Assembly (NCBI GenBank): GCA_903900155.1
Contig: CAIUMD010000007.1
Span: 1 to 64,000 of the forward strand
Origin: an uncultured Caulobacterales bacterium
GTDB taxonomy: Bacteria; Pseudomonadota; Alphaproteobacteria; Caulobacterales; Caulobacteraceae
Reading direction: 5' to 3'
DNA: 64,000 nt
The notes below the pieces were generated by a model. That model made no database searches and was not told the origin of the DNA. It saw nothing but the letters and a program-made list of their open reading frames with translations. Positions 17,590 to 27,547 of this stretch are shown here, piece after piece (the first letter of the stretch is position 1; each line of letters begins with the position of its first letter). The translations under genes and the position numbers were made by a program.

Positions 17590-18105
17590 ATGTCGAACCC
17601 CAAGGCCCCCGCCGATCCGGTCGAAGCTCCGGCCATCGACGCCCGTCTGGTCCGCAAGCTGGCGGACATCCTGAAGGACACGGGCCTGTCCGAGATCGAA
17701 GTCGAGCATGCCGGCCTCAAGATCCGCGTCGCCCGCGAGCTGACCGCCGCGCCGGTCAACTACGTCCAGGCCGCGGCGCCGGCCTACGCCCCCGCGCCCG
17801 TCGCCGCGCCGGCCCCGGCTGCTGCTCCGGCGCCCGCCGCTGAAGCCGCTCCGGCCCCCGCCGCCGTTCGTGGCGACGCGGTGAAGTCGCCGATGGTCGG
17901 CACCGCCTATCTGTCGCCCCAGCCGGGCGCGGACGCCTTCATCAAGGTCGGTGACACGGTCTCGGCCGGCCAGACCCTGCTGATCGTCGAAGCCATGAAG
18001 ACCATGAACCCGATCTCGGCTCCGAAGGCGGGCAAGGTCGTCGAGATCCTGGTCGCCGACGCCCAGCCCGTCGAGTTCGGCGAGCCGCTCGTCGTCATCG
18101 AGTAA
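17590..18105 (+). CDS. accB: Biotin carboxyl carrier protein of acetyl-CoA carboxylase
   Basis: It carries carboxybiotin between AccC and AccA/D for malonyl-CoA synthesis. The protein is 171 residues. An N-terminal dimerisation helix (about 15-50) and an Ala-Pro linker (about 60-95) precede the biotinyl domain. The biotinylated lysine is K137 in EAMKTMN, where the usual second Met of EAMKMMN is Thr; this is a tolerated variant. It lies 5 bp before accC. Confidence 0.95.
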
Positions 18106-18110
18106 CGGCC

Positions 18111-19457
18111 ATGTTCGACAAGATCCTCATCGCGAACCGGGGCGAGATCGCGCTCCGGGTCCACCGCGCCTGCAAGGAAATGGGCATCGCCACCGTGGCG
18201 GTCCACTCCGAGGCCGACCGCAACTCCATGTGGGTGCGCCTGGCGGACGAAAGCGTCTGCATCGGCCCCGCGCCGGCCGCCAAGAGCTATCTCAACATCC
18301 CGTCGATCATCGCGGCGGCCGAGATCACCGGCGCCCAGGGCATCCACCCGGGCTATGGCTTCCTGTCGGAGAACGCCCGCTTCGCCGAGATCGTCGGCGC
18401 GCACGGCTTCACCTTCATCGGTCCCAAGCCCGAGCACATCCGGATGATGGGCGACAAGATCACCGCCAAGCAGGCCGTGAAGGACGCCGGCATCCCGGTC
18501 GTCCCCGGCTCGGACGGCGGCGTCTCCACGGAAGAAGAGGCCTTCGAGGCCGCCGACAAGATCGGCTTCCCGGTGCTGATCAAGGCCGCCGCCGGCGGTG
18601 GCGGTCGCGGCATGAAGGTCGCCCAGACGCGTGAAGACCTGGCCGAAGCGGTTGCGACCGCCCGCGCCGAGGCCCGCGCCGCGTTCGGCGACGACACGGT
18701 CTATATGGAGCGCTACCTCCAGAAGCCGCGCCACATCGAGCTGCAGGTCATCGCCGACAGCCACGGCAACGTGGTGCATCTGGGCGAACGCGACTGCTCG
18801 CTGCAGCGCCGCCACCAGAAGGTGCTGGAAGAAGCCCCCTCGCCGGCTCTGTCGGCCGAGGGACGCGCCAAGATCGGCAAGATCGTGGTCGACGCCGTCA
18901 AGGCCATTGGTTATCTCGGCGTCGGGACCATCGAGTTCCTGTGGGAGAACGACGAGTTCTTCTTCATCGAGATGAACACCCGCCTGCAGGTCGAGCACCC
19001 GGTCACCGAAGCCATCACCGGCATCGACCTCGTCCGTGAGCAGATCCGCATCGCCGCCGGCCTGCCGCTGTCGTTCACCCAGGACGACGTCGTCTTCGAA
19101 GGCCACGCCATCGAGTGCCGGATCAACGCCGAGAACGCGCGGACCTTCACGCCCTCGCCGGGCGTGATCACCGACTTCCACGCCCCTGGCGGCCTGGGCG
19201 TTCGCCTGGATTCAGCGATCTACACCGGCTACGCGATCCCGCCGTACTACGACAGCCTGATCGGCAAGCTGATCGTCCACGGCCGCGACCGCGCCGAGTG
19301 CATCGCGCGCCTCAAGCGCTGCCTGGCCGAAATGGTGGTCGGCGGCGTCGAGACCACGATCCCGCTGTTCCAGGACCTGCTGGTGCAGCCCGACATCCTG
19401 GCCGGCGACTATAACATCCACTGGCTGGAACGCTGGATCAAAGCCCAGGAAGCCTAA
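18111..19457 (+). CDS. accC: Biotin carboxylase subunit of acetyl-CoA carboxylase
   Basis: It carboxylates biotin on AccB using ATP and bicarbonate. The 448 residues match the usual length. ATP-grasp motifs: [13 protein letters not shown] at the N-terminus, [12 protein letters not shown] (glycine-rich loop), [19 protein letters not shown], and [16 protein letters not shown] at the metal and bicarbonate site. It is translated from an ATG five bases past accB. aat follows after 8 bp, so aroQ, accB, accC and aat may form one transcript. Confidence 0.97.
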
Positions 19458-19465
19458 CCCCGGGA

Positions 19466-20125
19466 ATGGCGATGGAAGACGCCTTCACGGTCGACGATCT
19501 GATCGCCTGCTATGCGCGCGGCGTCTTCCCCATGGCCGACGCCCGCGAGGACGAAAGCCTGTTCCTGATCGATCCCGAGCGGCGGGGCGTCCTGCCGCTC
19601 GGGGACTTTCACATCCCCAAGCGCCTGGCCCGCACGGTCCGCAACGGTCCCTACCAGGTCAGGATCGACACCGCCTTCGACGCGGTGATCGAAGGCTGCG
19701 CGGCCTCCAAGCCCGGCCGGCTCGACACCTGGATCAATCACCCCATCCAGCGCCTGTACGGCCAGCTCTACGCCCGTGGCCTAGCTCATAGCGTCGAGAC
19801 CTGGGACGGCGACCGGCTGGTCGGCGGCCTGTACGGCGTGGCCCTGGGCGGCGCGTTCTTCGGCGAGAGCATGTTCTCGACGGCGCGGGACGCCAGCAAG
19901 GTGGCGCTGGTGCATCTGGTGGCGCGGCTAGTGGCCGGCGGCTATCAGCTGCTCGACACCCAGTTCCTCACCGATCACCTGACGCAGTTCGGCACGCTCG
20001 AAATCAGCCGCGCGGACTATCGCCGACGGCTGGCCAAGGCCCTGCTGGTTCCGGGGGACTTCTACGGCTTGGCGGGCGGCGCGTCCGGAAGCGACTGCTT
20101 GCAGGCGATCAGCCAGGCGTCATAG
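19466..20125 (+). CDS. aat: Leucyl/phenylalanyl-tRNA-protein transferase
   Basis: It adds Leu or Phe to proteins with N-terminal Arg or Lys, marking them for ClpS/ClpAP degradation; N-end rule turnover is active in Caulobacter. The protein is 219 residues. Motifs: GVFPMAD near residue 20, [36 protein letters not shown] (written here as two joined motifs, HSVETWDGD and LVGGLYGV), FFGESMFS and [14 protein letters not shown] 19466 or 19472 could serve as start. Its last 64 bp overlap the convergent DUF2155 gene. Confidence 0.94.
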
Positions 20126-20703
20126 ACCGGGTGCTCCAGCGGGTGCAGGCCCGGCGTGCTGGCGTACATCCAACCCTTGTAGACTTGGCGTCCAGGCGGC
20201 GCGGCGCGGCCGGCCTGGGCCTTGGGCTGGGTGTCGATGACGACATAGGCCGAGGTTTCCGGCGCGATCTCGTCGGCGGCGGCCGTCTCGCAGGCGCGGA
20301 CGGTGAAGATCAGGGTCTTGTAGCGGATCGGCTGGCCCACCGGGACCTCGAACCGCATGGTCTCGGTCGTGACCTTGTCCAGGGCCTGGACGATGGCCAC
20401 CGAATAGCGCTGACGCTTAGCGGGTTCGACCGGCTTGGCCGGAGTCGTCGGTTTGGGCGTTACGACGGCGCCGGGCTTGGGCGAGGCCGGCGGCACGGGA
20501 TTGGCGGCCGCCGGGGTCACCTGGGTCGGCTGGGCCTCGCCGGCCGGCGTCGGCGCGGGGGCCGGACGCGGCGCGGGCGGCGCTTGCGGGGCCAGAGGCG
20601 CGGCCGGGGGCTGGAACGTCGAGTTCTGGCGCGCCAACGCTGCGCCGGCCACGGTCAGACCGGACAGGACGGCGACGGCTGCCAGGGAAGCCCGACGGGC
20701 CAT
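20062..20703 (-). CDS. DUF2155-domain secreted protein
   Basis: The function is unknown. The 213-residue protein has a signal peptide ending near AALARQN, then a long Pro/Ala-rich linker (about 30-100), then a DUF2155 domain with [27 protein letters not shown] and [19 protein letters not shown]. In alphaproteobacteria this family often sits beside the NDUFA12-like gene, as here (5 bp apart), and is presumed periplasmic. Its 3' end overlaps aat tail-to-tail by 64 bp. The start is ATG at 20701-20703; the longer open frame to 21171 is a shadow of the upstream gene. Confidence 0.85.
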
Positions 20704-20708
20704 GCGGC

Positions 20709-21104
20709 TTATTCCGGCTTCCAGGCTTCGTAGTCGCTGGTGGCGACCGCGCGTTCGCCGCCACGGGTCAGCGAACCCTTCGGACGCCACGCATAGACCG
20801 TGCCGGTCAGGTTCGGCAGGTGATCCTTTTCCCACGCGCGACGCGGCAGCGGAACCTGGGTCGGCGGCTCGTCGAAGGTGTAGTGCAGCCAGCCGCTCCA
20901 GTCCGGCGGGACCTTCGAGGCTTCGGCATAGCCGTTGTAGATCACCCAGCGGCGCTTGCGCTGGTCGTAAGAGTCGCTGTTGTCGCGGGCTTCGAAATAG
21001 CGGTTGCCTTGCTCGTCCTGGCCCACAAACACGCCGCGGCGGCCGATATGGAAGCGCTGACCCAGGGTCGCGCCGTTCCACCACGTGAAGATCGCTTTCA
21101 GCAC
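20709..21104 (-). CDS. NDUFA12/17.2-kDa-like subunit of NADH:ubiquinone oxidoreductase
   Basis: This is an accessory subunit of respiratory complex I found in alphaproteobacteria and mitochondria. The 131-residue protein has the family pattern: WWNGATLGQRF, VGQDEQGNRYFE, RRWVIYNGYAEASKVPP, WSGWLHYTFDE and AYEAWKP-like end YEAWKPE. The main nuo operon is not in this window. It is followed 5 bp later by the DUF2155 gene, and the two are probably co-transcribed. Confidence 0.92.
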   Translation of the reverse strand: MLKAIFTWWNGATLGQRFHIGRRGVFVGQDEQGNRYFEARDNSDSYDQRKRRWVIYNGYAEASKVPPDWSGWLHYTFDEPPTQVPLPRRAWEKDHLPNLTGTVYAWRPKGSLTRGGERAVATSDYEAWKPE

Positions 21105-21382
21105 TACGTTCGCACCTGAAATTGCAAGGCTTTGGCTTACCGCGAGACGCGCGGCGAAGCGGCCGGAACATAGCGCCCCAGGCTCGCAGCGTCCAGCGCC
21201 GCTAGGTCCAGGCCGACTTCAACATCTTGTGGATTAGAGCCCCCAGACCCACGACATCTATTGAGGCTCGGCGAGCGAGGTTCTAGCTTGGGGTGCGACC
21301 TTACGCGCATCCCGACGGCACGGAATCAGTCATTAGGGATTTGGTAAGACATCACGACCGCCGCCCGGACCGGAACTCGCCC

Positions 21383-24109
21383 ATGCGCACGCCCGCCAAA
21401 GCCGCCGGACTTGTCCCCGCCATGGAGTGGCGCGACCTGGAACGCGCCGACGAGATGGTCGTGGTCTCCGCCCCTGCGGCCTGGAGCGACGCCCGTGTCG
21501 AGGCCTGGCTGGACTGGGCCGGCGAGATCGAGCCCAAGGCCCCGCTGGGCGGCGGCCCTGCGCGTTATGCCGACCGTATCGCCCAGGCGGGCCTGGCCCG
21601 TGGCCTGTTCGGCGACAAGGCCGACGCCGCCGCGTTCCGCGAAGCCCTGCTGGCCACCATGCTGTCGGGCGTCGCCACGCCCGCCGGCGGCCAGGCCGGT
21701 CTGGAGTTGCTGTCCGACATCGGCGAGTTCGAGTTCCAGAGCGCGGTGAAGACCACCCTGGCCCAGCGTCGCGGGCGCCTGCTGGCCGCCCAGGCCGCCG
21801 CGCGCCTCGACGCCGCCCTGGCCCAGGTCGCCGACGCCGTGCGCCGCTGCTCGGGCGACGCCCGCGCCTGCAGCGACGTCCACAAGAACCCCGCCCTGGC
21901 CCGCGCCGCCCGCAAGGCCCGCGAACTGGGCGCCGACGATCGCACCATCCTGGACGCCATCGCCACAGCCGACACCCTGCGCTCCTCGCTGGGCGAGCAG
22001 GCGCCCGAGCGCGAACTCTCGATGGTCGCCTCGGCCTCGCGCCAGGCCGTCGCCGCCGGTGACGAGGCCTCGGGCCTGGCGGCGCAGGTCGGCTGGGAAA
22101 CCAGCGCCTTGACCCTGGCCCTGTCGCCGAACGACGCCGAGCTGATCTCGCGCGGCGCGGGCGCCAGCGCCGCCATCGACGCCAGCGCCTTCCTCGACGA
22201 GGACGGTTTCGACGTCGAGCGCTTCACCTATGTCTGCCACCTGTGGGGCACGGCCCTGGAGCTGGCGCGCGGCGACCGCCCTGCCCGCCTGGGCCTGGCC
22301 GGCGTCGGCGACTGCCTGCTGACCCAGGGCTGGGCCCAGACCAGCGTCGAGGGCCGTGACGGCGCCGCCGCGCTGTGGGCCTTGGCCGTGGGCGCGGCCT
22401 TGTCGGCCAGCGCCGAAGCCGCCGCCGTGCTGGGCCAGGACGAAGCCTTCGCCCAGGACAAGCAGGGCGTGCTCAAGACCCTGGCCGAACGCCGCGTGCG
22501 CGCCGCCGCCCTGCGCTCGGCCCTGGCCACCGAGGCTGCCGCCGCGCTGGCCACAGCCCACGCCCTGGCCCGCAAGCAGGGCTTGCGCTCGGCCGCCCTG
22601 GTCGGTCCGTTCGAGGATGTCGAGGCCAGCTTGCGCCTGGGCGGTTCGCCCGTCGGCGCGGCCGGCGCGGTGTCACCCGTGTCGGTCGCCCAGACCGCCG
22701 ACGGCTGGCTGCTGCCGGCCTTCAGTCCCGCCGCCTTCGAGGCTCTGTCGGCCGAAGGCGTCGACCTGGACGCCGCCCGCCGTCACGCCCTGGGCCACGG
22801 CTCGCTGCTGGACAGCCCGGCCATCGACCACGTGATGCTACAAGCGCGCGGCTTCACCGCCCATGAGATCGAGAAGGCCGAGAACGCCCTGCGCGAGCAT
22901 CACGGCATCCGCGCCGCCTTCGCTCCAGCCCTGGTCGGCGCAGGCTTCCTGCGCGACGTGCTGGGCGCCTCGGCCGAGGACGTGGCCCGCCGCGACTTCG
23001 ACACCCTGGCCTTCGCCGACTTCTCGCCCACCGAGATCGCCGCCGCCGAACGCCACGCCCTGGGCGCGGGCGCGCTGGGCGACTGCGAGGCGCTGAACCC
23101 GGAACTGCGCGAGGCCTTCCGCTCGATCGAGGCCCCGGCCTTCGCCGACCGCCTGGCCATGCTGGCGGCCGTCGAAAGCTTCGCCTGCCTGCCCTCGCCG
23201 GTCACCGTGCCGGTGGCCTTCGACAGCCGCCCGGCCGACGCCGTCCGCGCCCAAGCAGCGGCGGCCCGCTCGGGCATCCGGGCCCTGCGCCTGCAACGCG
23301 CTACGGCTCCGGCCGACTTCAAGCTCGATTTGCCCGAGGAGGCCGCGCCCGAACCCGCCCGCGTCGCCGCGCCCGTCCGCGAGCCGATCGTCACCGAACG
23401 CGTGGTCGAGAAGATCGTCGAGCGCGACCGCGCCCGCCGCCGCCTGCCCGATCGCCGCAAGGGCTACATCCAGAAAGCGGCCGTCGGCGGCCACAAGGTC
23501 TATCTGCACACCGGCGAGTACGAGGACGGCGAGCTGGGCGAGCTGTTCATCGACATGCACAAAGAAGGCGCGGCGTTCCGCAGCCTGATGAACAACTTCG
23601 CCATCGCCGTGTCGCTGGGCCTGCAGCACGGCGTGCCGCTGGAAGAGTTCGTCGACGCCTTCGTCTACACCAAGTTCGAGCCGGCCGGCCCGGTGTCGGG
23701 CAACGACTCGATCAAGTCGGCGACCTCGATCCTGGACTACATCTTCCGCGAACTGGGCGTCTCGTACCTGGGCCGCGATGACCTGGCCAATGGCGACAGC
23801 GGCCAGTTCAACGCCGACGGCCTGGGCTGGGGCAAGCCGCTGGAGGACGACGAGATCGACGATGTCGGCCTGGACCCCGTCCTGGCCAGCAAGTTCATCT
23901 CCAAGGGCTTTTCGCGCGGCGCGGCGCCCGACAACCTCGTGTTCGCCTCGTTCGGCCGCAAACGCGTCGAGGGCGCCGATCGTCCTGGCGCCGAGGGCGA
24001 GATGTGCCCGGCCTGCGGCGATCTCTCGCTGACCCGTCGCGGCGGCATGACCGTGTGCGACACCTGCGGCGCGCAGTCGGACCGTCCCGGGCCTGTCGCC
24101 TCGTCCTGA
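21383..24109 (+). CDS. Probable degenerate class II (B12-type) ribonucleotide reductase paralogue with TSCPD domain
   Basis: The 908-residue protein starts at ATG 21383; the frame is open to 21293. Its C-terminus (about 685-860) is nearly canonical for alphaproteobacterial Nrd[74 protein letters not shown] zinc ribbon follows (CPAC 875-878, CDTC 892-895). The upstream part is Ala-rich and diverged, but remnants align with Nrd[16 protein letters not shown] near 300 (barrel), then [18 protein letters not shown] and [12 protein letters not shown] near 490-540. The cysteine-bearing DCANPCG-type and TINMP-type motifs expected after these are gone. I infer a catalytically dead paralogue, perhaps regulatory. 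NrdJ alignments are from memory. Confidence 0.72.
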
Positions 24110-24180
24110 GCCTGTTCGGCTGGCATTAAGGTTGCTGCGTCAGGGTGAAGACGACCCTTTCGCGTAGGACCTGCGCCAGA

Positions 24181-24672
24181 ATGAAACCGATTGCTCTTCT
24201 TGCGGCCCTCGCCGCGCTGGTCATTGCTGGCACGGCTAACGCCCAGAACGCCGGCCAGATTTCGGCCGTGCGCAATGGCGCCCACTGTCCGCGCTGCAAC
24301 CTGTTCCAGGCCGACCTGTCGAACCTGGAGCTGAAGAGCAAGAACCTGTCCGGCGCCCGCCTGCGCCAGGCAGACTTCTCGACGGCGATCATGAACCGCA
24401 CCCGCTTCGCCGGCGGCGACCTGCGGGATGTCAACGCCTATGGCGCGGTGCTGACCGGCGCCAGCTTCGCCCGCGCGGACCTGACCAACGCCAGCTTCGT
24501 CGGCGCCTATCTGCAGGGCGCGAACTTTTCGGGCGCGCGGCTGTCGGGCGTCAACTTCTCGGGCGCCGAGATGAACCGCGCCGTGGGTCTGAGCCAAGGC
24601 CAGTTGAACGGCGCCTGCGGCGACGACTCCACGTTGCTGCCGCGGGGACTTTCCATTCCGCGCTGCCGTTAA
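24181..24672 (+). CDS. Secreted pentapeptide-repeat protein (short paralogue)
   Basis: The function is unknown. The protein is 163 residues. A signal peptide ends near ANAQN. About 75 residues of pentapeptide repeats A(D/N)LxX follow, for example NLSGARLRQADFS, GASFARADLTNASF and LQGANFSGARLSGVNFSG, which fold as a quadrilateral beta-helix. The helix is preceded by a CPRC motif (HCPRCNLFQADLS). The C-terminal tail LSQGQLNGACGDD with one further Cys also occurs in the neighbouring paralogue. The ATG at 24181 starts the signal peptide; an ATG at 24145 is open but adds only non-signal residues. Confidence 0.82.
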   Translation: MKPIALLAALAALVIAGTANAQNAGQISAVRNGAHCPRCNLFQADLSNLELKSKNLSGARLRQADFSTAIMNRTRFAGGDLRDVNAYGAVLTGASFARADLTNASFVGAYLQGANFSGARLSGVNFSGAEMNRAVGLSQGQLNGACGDDSTLLPRGLSIPRCR

Positions 24673-24771
24673 ATCCCCGTCATTACCGCAATTTAAGTGG
24701 CTTCCGGCCCTCCGACGGTTCAAACCGTAACTCACACAGTCGCGTATCGTTGGACTGGCACGGAGAAGTCG

Positions 24772-25632
24772 ATGTCCCGCTTGGGCGTTTCAATCGCCGC
24801 CTTGACGCTGAGCCTGCTGGCCCTGGCCGGCCAGGCTCACGCCTCGATCGAAGACAAGGACGTCGCCAAGCTGACCTCCTTCGGCGGTATGTGCGCCAAC
24901 TGTGATCTCGCAGGCCGCAAGCTGATGAACGCCAAGTTCGCGGGCGCCAACTTCGCCAAGTCCGTCCTGATCGGCGCCGACCTGCGCGGCGCGATGTTCT
25001 ATGGCAGCAACTTCGCCGCCGCCGACCTGACCCGCGCCGACCTGCGCGGCGCCGAGATGCGCGGCGCCAACTTCGTGGCCGCCAACTTCACCGACGCCAA
25101 GATGTCGGGCGTCGAAAGCAGCGGCGCCAACCTGCAATCGGCCATCATGGTCCGCGTCGACCTGTCGTCGTCCGAACTGCATGGTTCGCAACTGGTCGGC
25201 GCCAACCTGCAGCGCGCCCGCCTGTCGAACGCCGAGCTGACCGGCTCGAACATGCAGGGCGTCAACGCCCGCGACGCCGACTTCTCGAACGCGGAGCTGA
25301 CCCACGCCAACATGACCGGCGGCAAGTTCGAAAGCGCCAACTTCCGCAATGCCGACCTGACGGCCGCCAACCTGCGCGGCGCGGTCTTCAACGGCGCCGA
25401 CTTTCGCAACGCCGACCTCAGCGCCGCCGTGCTGACCGGCGCGGATTTCTCGGGCGCCAGGGGCCTGGACCAGGACCAGCTGGACGAAGCCTGCGCCGAC
25501 GGCATGCGCCTGCCCGCGGGCTTCACCATCCGCCCCTGCAACGGCATGCGGAACGCCCGCTTCATGCTGCTGCGCGAGATGCCGAAGGCGCCGCCGGCTC
25601 CGCCGAAGCCGCCCAAGCCTCCGAAGTACTGA
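24772..25632 (+). CDS. Secreted pentapeptide-repeat protein (long paralogue)
   Basis: The function is unknown. The protein is 286 residues. A signal peptide ends near AHASIED. A CANC motif (MCANCDLAGRKLMNAKF) precedes about 40 pentapeptide units running to about residue 230, for example GADLRGAMFYGSNFAAADL. The tail then matches the short paralogue (LDQDQLDEACADGMRLP) and ends in a Pro/Lys-rich stretch. It lies 99 bp after the short paralogue, so the two arose by tandem duplication and repeat expansion or loss. The start ATG at 24772 has GGAG upstream. Confidence 0.83.
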   Translation: MSRLGVSIAALTLSLLALAGQAHASIEDKDVAKLTSFGGMCANCDLAGRKLMNAKFAGANFAKSVLIGADLRGAMFYGSNFAAADLTRADLRGAEMRGANFVAANFTDAKMSGVESSGANLQSAIMVRVDLSSSELHGSQLVGANLQRARLSNAELTGSNMQGVNARDADFSNAELTHANMTGGKFESANFRNADLTAANLRGAVFNGADFRNADLSAAVLTGADFSGARGLDQDQLDEACADGMRLPAGFTIRPCNGMRNARFMLLREMPKAPPAPPKPPKPPKY

Positions 25633-25708: not shown

Positions 25709-27547
25709 CTAAACCTTGATGGGGGGCGCCGTGCGGATGTGCAGTTCCTTCAACTGCTTGTCGAGCACGTTGGCCGGCGCGTTCATCAGCAGGTCCTGGC
25801 CCTGCTGGTTCAGCGGGAAGGCGATGACTTCACGGATGGCGACCTGATCGGCCAGCAGCATGACGATGCGGTCGATGCCGGGGGCCAGACCGCCGTGCGG
25901 CGGCGCGCCGTAGCGGAAGGCGTTCAGCATGCCGCCGAACTGCTCCTCGACCACTTCCGGGCCGTAGCCGGCGGTGGCGAAGGCCTTGAGCATGATCTCC
26001 GGCTTGTGGTTCCGGATCGCGCCCGAGCACAGCTCGTAGCCGTTGCAGACGATGTCGTACTGGTAGGCGCGGATGGTCAGCGGGTCCTGGGTCTCCAGAG
26101 CTTCCAAACCGCCTTGCGGCATCGAGAACGGGTTGTGGCTGAAGTCGACCTTCTTCTCGTCCTCGTTCCACTCGAACATCGGGAAGTCGACGATCCAGCA
26201 GAACTTGAACTGGTTCTCGTCGACCAGCTTCAGCTCCGTGCCGACGCGGGTGCGGGCCAGGCCGGCGAACTTGGCGAACACGGCGGGATCGCCGGCCACG
26301 AAGAAGGCGGCGTCGCCGGCGCCCAGGCCCAGCGATTCCATCAGGGCTTGCGTCGGCTCGCCCAGGTTCTTGGCGATCGGGCCGCCCCAGCCGCCCTGGT
26401 CTTCCGACCAGAAGACGTAGCCGAGGCCCGGCTGGCCTTCGCCTTGCGCCCAGCTGTTCATGCGGTCGCAGAACGCGCGGCTGCCGCCGGTCGGCGCCGG
26501 GATCGCCCAGATCTGGTTCTTGGCGTCCGCGCCCAGGATCTTGGCGAACAGGCCAAAGCCGCCGTCACGGAAGTGCTCCGAGACGTTCTGCATCTTAATC
26601 GGGTTGCGCAGGTCGGGCTTGTCGCTGCCGTACCAGGCCATCGACTGCATGTAGGTCAGGCGCTCGAAGCCCTGGTGCTCGAACGACTCGCCCAGGTCGT
26701 TGGTGAAGGTGTGCGCGCCCGAGATCGGCGAGACCGGCTTGCCGTTCGAGAACTCCTCGAAGACGCCGTGCATGACGGGCTCGATGGCCGCGAACACGTC
26801 TTCTTGCGTCACGAAGCTCATCTCGACGTCCAGCTGGTAGAATTCCAGCGAACGGTCGGCGCGCAGGTCTTCGTCGCGGAAGCACGGCGCGATCTGGAAG
26901 TAGCGGTCGAAGCCCGAGACCATCAGCAGCTGCTTGAACTGCTGGGGCGCCTGCGGCAGGGCGTAGAACTTCTCGGGGTGCAGACGCGAGGGCACCAGGA
27001 AGTCGCGTGCGCCTTCCGGCGACGAGGCCGTCAGGATCGGCGTCTGGAACTCGTTGAAGCCCTGGGCGAACATGCGGTTGCGGATCGACTGGATCACGCG
27101 CGAGCGCAGGACGATGTTCTTGTGCAGGGTCTCGCGACGCAGGTCGAGATAGCGGTGCTTAAGGCGGATCTCTTCCGGATAGTCCGGCTCGCCGAAGACC
27201 GGCAGCGGCAGCTCGGCGGCTTCCGACAGCACCTCGACGGCCGAGACGCGGATCTCGATCTCGCCGGTCGGCAGGTTGGGGTTCACCACGCTGGCGTCGC
27301 GGGCGATGACCTCGCCGTCGATCTTGATCACGCTTTCCGCCCGCAGGCGCTCGACCGTCGAGAAGCCCGGGGTTTCCGGGTGCAAAACGAGCTGCGTCAG
27401 GCCGTGGTGGTCGCGCAGGTCGATGAAGACCAGACCGCCGTGGTCGCGCTTGCGATGGATCCAGCCCGACAGGCGCACCGAGGAACCGGTGTCGGAAGCG
27501 CGCAGGGCGCCGCAGTTGTGGGTGCGATAGGCGTGCATGGAGGTCAT
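25709..27547 (-). CDS. aspS: Aspartyl-tRNA synthetase
   Basis: It charges tRNA-Asp. The 612-residue bacterial-type enzyme has the N-terminal OB fold ([20 protein letters not shown]), class II motif 2 ([10 protein letters not shown] preceded by QIAPC), a GAD insertion domain around 300-430 ([16 protein letters not shown]), and motif 3 ([15 protein letters not shown]). The start may be ATG 27547 or the ATG at 27538 ([10 protein letters not shown]); neither has a clear Shine-Dalgarno. Whether it also aspartylates tRNA-Asn cannot be judged from sequence alone. tpiA lies 79 bp upstream on the same strand. Confidence 0.96.

Follow-up and report, generated by a model that had tools for sequence, protein, structure and literature searches.

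The locus considered here raises the question of why a gene descended from a B12-dependent (class II) ribonucleotide reductase (RNR) should keep one of its domains in good order when the catalytic part of the protein has fallen into decay. The gene lies in a stretch of 64,000 nucleotides (the window) from an uncultured Caulobacterales bacterium. An initial annotation, drawn from the letters of this stretch, read it as a decayed paralogue of NrdJ with a retained TSCPD domain, and proposed for it a selected, non-catalytic role. The parts of the gene to which the following discussion refers are these:

21383..24109, plus strand: coding sequence of the decayed NrdJ orthologue (P0001), 908 residues (open reading frame, NCBIfam, alignment)
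22262..22504, plus strand: remnant of the NrdJ barrel, residues 294-374, without catalytic residues (Pfam, PDB match, alignment)
22721..23119, plus strand: residues 447-579, the best-kept NrdJ stretch outside the C-terminus (PDB match, identity)
23435..23785, plus strand: TSCPD (IscU-like) block, residues 685-801 (Pfam, identity, dN/dS)
24005..24067, plus strand: zinc ribbon, residues 875-895, with C875, C878, C892 and C895 (alignment with Stackebrandtia NrdJ)
24047..24049, plus strand: M889, replacing redox cysteine 933 of Stackebrandtia NrdJ (alignment)
24083..24085, plus strand: R901, replacing redox cysteine 945 of Stackebrandtia NrdJ (alignment)

The reading frame and its coordinates, the motifs, the descent from NrdJ and the retention of TSCPD were all borne out by Pfam, NCBIfam, the PDB and the alignments. 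The open frame extends back to a GTG at 21293, and the alignment of relatives begins at the ATG at 21383. The best NCBIfam match is the NrdJ model NF005736, with 382.1 bits (cut-off 1737), and the Pfam match to the RNR barrel also stays below its threshold (16.5 bits, cut-off 23.9); TSCPD (PF12637) is recognized at residues 701-791 with 39.4 bits (cut-off 22.8). The relative found in the PDB is the B12-dependent RNR of entries 7b9p and 7b9q, matched over residues 294-374 and 447-579. Both stretches had been viewed as remnants of the barrel, which holds for the first, whereas the second aligns with what we take to be the helical "HUG" (dimer) insertion of NrdJ and not with the barrel core. A literature search for the HUG domain together with RNR brought up no paper whose title points to the bacterial domain.

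The extent of the catalytic loss is evident from the alignments. In the first of these, comprising 13 eroded and 5 intact proteins, about 300 NrdJ residues are deleted in the window protein. The erosion sites named at the outset are real, the DCA(N/S)PCG segment being deleted and TINM having become VTVPVAF, yet the larger losses lie upstream, where a deletion has removed the region carrying the N-terminal redox cysteine and other sequence stands in place of NPCSE, TACNLAS and APTGTIG. Single residues were then counted over 62 intact and 80 eroded proteins, aligned from the loci in hand; the intact list excludes proteins cut by a locus end, the eroded list was compiled by hand (66 Caulobacterales and 14 others), and the tallies are of sequences and not of events, because close relatives are included. 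All 13 residues checked are kept by every intact NrdJ. The radical cysteine of the finger loop (NxCxE) is present in 62/62 intact and 0/80 eroded proteins, with a proline at this position in the window protein. The N-terminal (first active-site) redox cysteine is likewise kept by none of the 80, and the second by a single one (L168; labels in f, g, G and L denote families, genera, genomes and loci of the data set), both being absent from the window protein. Mapping of the radical and redox cysteines, which had been suggested with the annotation, thus reveals no intact catalytic set.

The C-terminal end combines loss with retention. According to the accessible text of PMC5704485, the zinc ligands of Stackebrandtia NrdJ are residues 920, 923, 936 and 939, and its redox cysteines are 933 and 945. 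The four ligands persist in the window protein, in line with the zinc ribbon first described after the block, and all four are kept by 69 of the 80 eroded proteins, the other 11 being without a ribbon. A C-terminal redox cysteine had been described as lost; the loss is confirmed, but it concerns both cysteines of the pair and not one, and neither is kept in any of the 80. Where NrdJb and the CRD have six cysteines, two of them redox-active, only the four zinc ligands are found. That the gene encodes a working B12-dependent RNR, as annotated, is therefore scarcely credible: the NrdJ model is its best NCBIfam match, and the available part of PMC6538847 names NrdJ (CCNA_01966), but the radical cysteine and the redox pairs are missing, the barrel is partly deleted and the model score is far below the cut-off.

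Whether the gene is a second copy or the lineage's own nrdJ is answered by its surroundings and by the rest of the genome. In the window, its neighbours are the following:

17590..18105, plus strand: accB, syntenic neighbour (Pfam, locus comparison)
18111..19457, plus strand: accC, syntenic neighbour, used for the tree (Pfam, locus comparison)
19466..20125, plus strand: aat, leucyl/phenylalanyl-tRNA-protein transferase, syntenic neighbour (Pfam, locus comparison)
20062..20706, minus strand: DUF2155 protein (family search, window only)
20709..21104, minus strand: NDUFA12-family gene, divergent from the decayed nrdJ, syntenic neighbour (Pfam, locus comparison)
24145..24672, plus strand: pentapeptide-repeat protein 1, syntenic neighbour (Pfam, locus comparison)
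24697..25632, plus strand: pentapeptide-repeat protein 2, syntenic neighbour (Pfam, locus comparison)
25709..27547, minus strand: tRNA synthetase of class II (D, K, N), taken to be aspS, syntenic neighbour (Pfam, locus comparison)

The order accB-accC-aat-ndufA12-[gene]-pentapeptide-aspS surrounds the eroded gene in Caulobacter, Phenylobacterium, Brevundimonas and Maricaulis, and in large part it also surrounds intact nrdJ at L057, L069, L070, L072, L111, L117, L121 and L128; many other intact nrdJ loci, including those of G039, G047, G048 and G056, are without it. Since this neighbourhood is shared with several intact nrdJ loci, the simplest reading is that an inherited nrdJ has eroded at its original site. 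A search of its own genome with the window protein, at E values up to 10, returned one match, the protein itself. The reading as a paralogue is ruled out by these two results, and the gene is almost certainly the lineage's inherited nrdJ orthologue, dead and decayed where it stood. The proposed roles as an inhibitor or an assembly partner of NrdJ fall with the paralogue, because the genome holds no other NrdJ on which the protein could act; it may still be a nucleotide or RNA sensor, which was the third role suggested. As a separate observation, eroded loci and many intact ones have one or two pentapeptide-repeat genes (24145-25632 here) downstream of the gene, and these remain in G123 although the nrdJ-derived gene is lost there.

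The genome does contain a separate RNR, as had been supposed. Only class I NrdA and a weak echo of the window protein come up in a search with the barrel family, with no NrdJa-like catalytic subunit. NrdA scores 1030.8 bits (cut-off 620) against its NCBI model, and NrdB is also present. Twelve of 61 relatives, 9 of them among the 37 genomes of the genus (G003, G025-G029, G032, G035 and G036, together with G037, G043 and G053 beyond it), encode an additional class II RNR, distinct from this one, whose barrel is intact. The NPCGE motif is found in all five of these extra enzymes that were examined (L171-L175), one of which (L172) passes the NCBI NrdJ_Z cut-off (550.7 vs 399.95 bits), and four have a C-terminal cysteine ribbon, L175 with its 582 residues being the one that lacks it. 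The eroded protein was considered as a partner of such an extra enzyme and rejected, because four of the five carry their own ribbon and the window's genome has no such enzyme. For similar reasons, it is very improbable that the protein donates electrons in trans, in the manner of NrdJb, to class I or to another class II RNR. The two share a domain make-up, a TSCPD/IscU-like domain with a zinc finger (PMC9669993, in its accessible text), but the C-terminal redox cysteines needed for such a role are the ones that all 80 eroded proteins have lost.

The decay is not confined to this genome and has probably occurred more than once. All 37 genomes of the genus, the present one included, contain a homologue, which in G004 and G015 is represented by short fragments at contig ends only; the open frames listed for the genus reach up to 977 residues. 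In the search of the genus plus relatives, 58 of 61 genomes have a match. Among 200 Caulobacterales genomes, the C-terminal domain is present in 188 and no match is found in 12 (three in g12, seven in f4 g10, one in f4 g314 and one in f3 g306); in G123 the flanking genes adjoin, the gene being cleanly absent between them. Named records of the eroded form, from a search in which 80 out of 583 related stretches were retained, belong to Caulobacter, Phenylobacterium, Brevundimonas, Asticcacaulis and Maricaulis. One assembly (G277) has two near-identical eroded copies, L164 and L226, the second on a contig of 6.3 kb, and this pair is probably a strain or assembly duplicate.

The class-wide sample consisted of 385 alphaproteobacterial genomes, in which the C-terminal domain was found in 247 at E 1e-10. 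A catalytic segment of 100 residues matched 254 genomes at E 1e-3 and 235 more strongly than 1e-30, the cut that was chosen, the next best match being at 1.5e-21. The domain occurs without a strong match to the catalytic segment in 19 of the 247 genomes, namely in Caulobacterales (4), f13 (3), f31 (3) and f102 (4), and in f45, f104, f154, f164 and f176. The reverse, a catalytic segment without the domain, occurs in 7 genomes. Read from stop to stop, the eroded frames range widely in length. The longest are those of f45 (1229 residues, with a first methionine near 110) and f176 (1089), followed by f154 (918), f164 (812), f104 (667) and the Caulobacterales loci checked (774-1007). Frames of f31 have 530-565 residues, a third one of 984 being homologous in its second half only. 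At the lower end, f13 (282-289, ribbon present, with a third frame cut by the contig) and f102 (277-280, without ribbon) have stand-alone TSCPD proteins of about 275 residues at the same locus, two of which score 46.2 and 49.6 bits in Pfam (cut-off 22.8).

The neighbourhood described above is found, whole or in part, at the genes of f13, f102, f104, f164, f45 and f176; the f31 locus retains ndufA12, and that of f154 has none of it. On a quick accC tree of 65 rows, from which f31, f154 and f164 are absent, in which L213 and L069 form long branches and in which three low-GC rows deviate in composition, the eroded state needs 7 changes as drawn, the starred branches force at least 3, and a single eroded clade is rejected (p-AU 1e-69). 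The corresponding tree of the TSCPD domain, with few columns and too short to decide, does not reject such a clade (p-AU 0.34). The independence of the losses is thus argued from the accC tree, the synteny and the different break points.

What has been retained through these losses is also what evolves most slowly. Over the whole gene, nine close Caulobacter genomes give a dN/dS of 0.147 (from our own NG86-type script); for residues 685-801 the value falls to 0.016, and the remaining regions lie at 0.087-0.254. The block also stands out in six Brevundimonas (0.039 vs 0.094-0.455 elsewhere) and in seven Caulobacter at middle distance (0.083 vs 0.300-0.549), for which the ratios are rough because dS looks saturated. 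The decayed gene is still under purifying selection, and the strong selection on one end of a protein that has lost its catalytic residues, as first proposed, is confirmed. In sampled pairs, eroded Caulobacterales proteins reach an identity to intact NrdJ of 0.80 within the block and of 0.20-0.37 outside it; the 14 other eroded proteins reach 0.68 within the block. The conserved block had been drawn to residue 860, which is justified up to 801, residues 802-870 being only 27% identical to intact NrdJ. When block distance is set against that of AccC, the slope is 0.50 for intact NrdJ (65 pairs) and 0.68 for eroded Caulobacterales (147 pairs); the eroded block thus evolves somewhat faster than in intact NrdJ, yet more slowly than AccC. 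At conserved fourfold codons, three sets of relatives show fewer third-base differences in the block than across residues 1-684 (0.33/0.41, 0.34/0.53 and 0.26/0.40), a modest effect compatible with codon choice, with an overlapping RNA or antisense constraint as an alternative.

A functionless, slowly decaying remnant would account for the loss of catalysis, for the 12 Caulobacterales genomes without the domain, for the clean deletion in G123 and for the divergence of the block in two families, f31 (45-59% identity to the window protein) and f104 (38-44% to four intact NrdJ). It is nevertheless improbable, since dN/dS in close Caulobacter lies well below 1 in every region, the domain persists in 188 of 200 Caulobacterales and the same domain is the one retained in separately decayed lineages. 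The divergence in f31 and f104 does argue against an equally strong function everywhere, and together with the 12 losses it indicates that the domain is not indispensable in every lineage.

One candidate source of such selection is the remaining RNR. The class I small subunit (NrdB) is present in 19/19 eroded genomes and in 79/228 of those with both domain and segment (Fisher p 7e-9, for genomes that share ancestry); counted by lineage, as Caulobacterales and eight families, all nine have class I. This association may suggest that the protein regulates or assembles class I NrdAB, for instance as a dNTP-responsive oligomer docking on NrdA, and the accessible text of PMC5704485 describes the C-terminal domain of Stackebrandtia NrdJ as required for the higher oligomers induced by dATP and dGTP, and as having a part in electron transfer. 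However, class I went unmatched in 149 of the 228 genomes that combine domain and segment, yet the TSCPD block is 84% identical among intact NrdJ, and for these two reasons the constraint on the block does not come from class I. Conversely, TSCPD went without a match in 83 of the 181 genomes that have class I. Sites resembling the NrdR box, with up to 4 mismatches, lie upstream of 4/10 intact nrdJ and 0/7 eroded genes, and upstream of the own nrdA (L176) and nrdB (L177) with 4 and 3 mismatches; shuffled sequences reach 2-5 mismatches at best, so that this contrast is a weak one. A class I regulator is thus unlikely.

Binding of RNA or DNA by the zinc ribbon and the basic PDRRKGYxQKA segment is another unlikely source of the constraint. 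The ribbon bears a sub-threshold Pfam likeness to TFIIB-type and Rrn7 zinc ribbons (17.1 bits, cut-off 27.1), that of Stackebrandtia NrdJ was modelled on a tRNA-modifying enzyme (PMC5704485, accessible text), and the start of the block is basic; but over its full length the block is slightly acidic (14 K+R, 17 D+E and 4 H), and the ribbon is the part that 11 of the 80 eroded proteins have dispensed with. A profile of the TSCPD alignment gave a single match among PDB sequences, at E 1.3, which was disregarded.

The explanation favoured here, and considered reasonably probable as a whole, is that an inherited, dead nrdJ has been kept for a non-catalytic function of its TSCPD domain. That this IscU-like domain has a selected second function apart from nucleotide reduction is likely in its own right. 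Such a function would already have been served inside the working NrdJ; where class I NrdAB covered the supply of dNTPs, the B12-dependent barrel would have been free to decay, and the protein would then have shrunk towards its TSCPD domain. A redox role is excluded by the sequence, which leaves self-association and docking. In its least certain step, the proposal regards the domain as a non-redox, cysteine-free docking or oligomerizing scaffold that would bind a slowly evolving cellular partner, a mechanism put forward tentatively; this partner might, as a guess, be nucleic acid or else a protein that takes part in replication or in the supply of DNA precursors. It is somewhat probable, in more general terms, that the domain is a bifunctional passenger with a conserved role outside nucleotide reduction, around which the enzyme was whittled away in several separate lineages, ending in the stand-alone form.

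The accessible text of PMC9669993 predicts the C-terminal domain of long class II RNRs to be IscU-like, with an alpha+beta fold, and states that no role has been reported for it so far, oligomerization being suggested; the initial annotation, too, knew of no described function. In the open-licence literature searched, no description of this family as catalytically dead was found. The accessible part of PMC6538847 regards dNTP production as one of the purposes that B12 serves in Caulobacter crescentus, and it places NrdJ (CCNA_01966) in the pathway. From the annotation, the genomes of the genus and the eroded form in Caulobacter vibrioides (L034, 81% identical), CCNA_01966 would be the gene described here. 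Judged by the sequences of this family, the counting of this NrdJ as a B12 use is probably wrong; B12-dependent reduction may still occur in the genus, because 9 of its 37 genomes have the second class II RNR. CCNA_01966 is also listed among the RNAs that co-purify with the sRNA GsrN (PMC5869019, accessible text). Catalogues of B12 need which rely on matches to "NrdJ" would be misled in such lineages. At the same time, lineages that keep the domain without the enzyme constitute a natural experiment separating a hidden function from catalysis, and Caulobacter offers a tractable host in which the function of the domain can be sought.

Among known systems, the likeness to the IscU scaffold lies in the fold predicted in PMC9669993 (accessible text), while residues 685-801 contain no cysteine and hence no IscU-type ligands for an Fe-S cluster. 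NrdJb, the small subunit of the split class II RNR of Pseudomonas aeruginosa, performs disulfide exchange for NrdJa (PMC4520616, accessible text). It resembles the window protein in having a TSCPD/IscU-like domain and a zinc finger with no catalytic barrel activity on the same chain (PMC9669993), whereas the window protein has lost both redox cysteines and its genome is without an NrdJa-like partner. Stackebrandtia NrdJ shares the spacing of the zinc ligands and the domain behind its higher oligomers (PMC5704485) and differs in its redox pair, 933/945, which here is M889/R901. The alphaproteobacterial NrdJ of model NF005736 differs from the window protein in possessing the radical cysteine, the redox pairs and some 300 further residues; it agrees with it in locus, in the N- to C-terminal order of the remnants, in a block about 80% identical and in the four zinc ligands.
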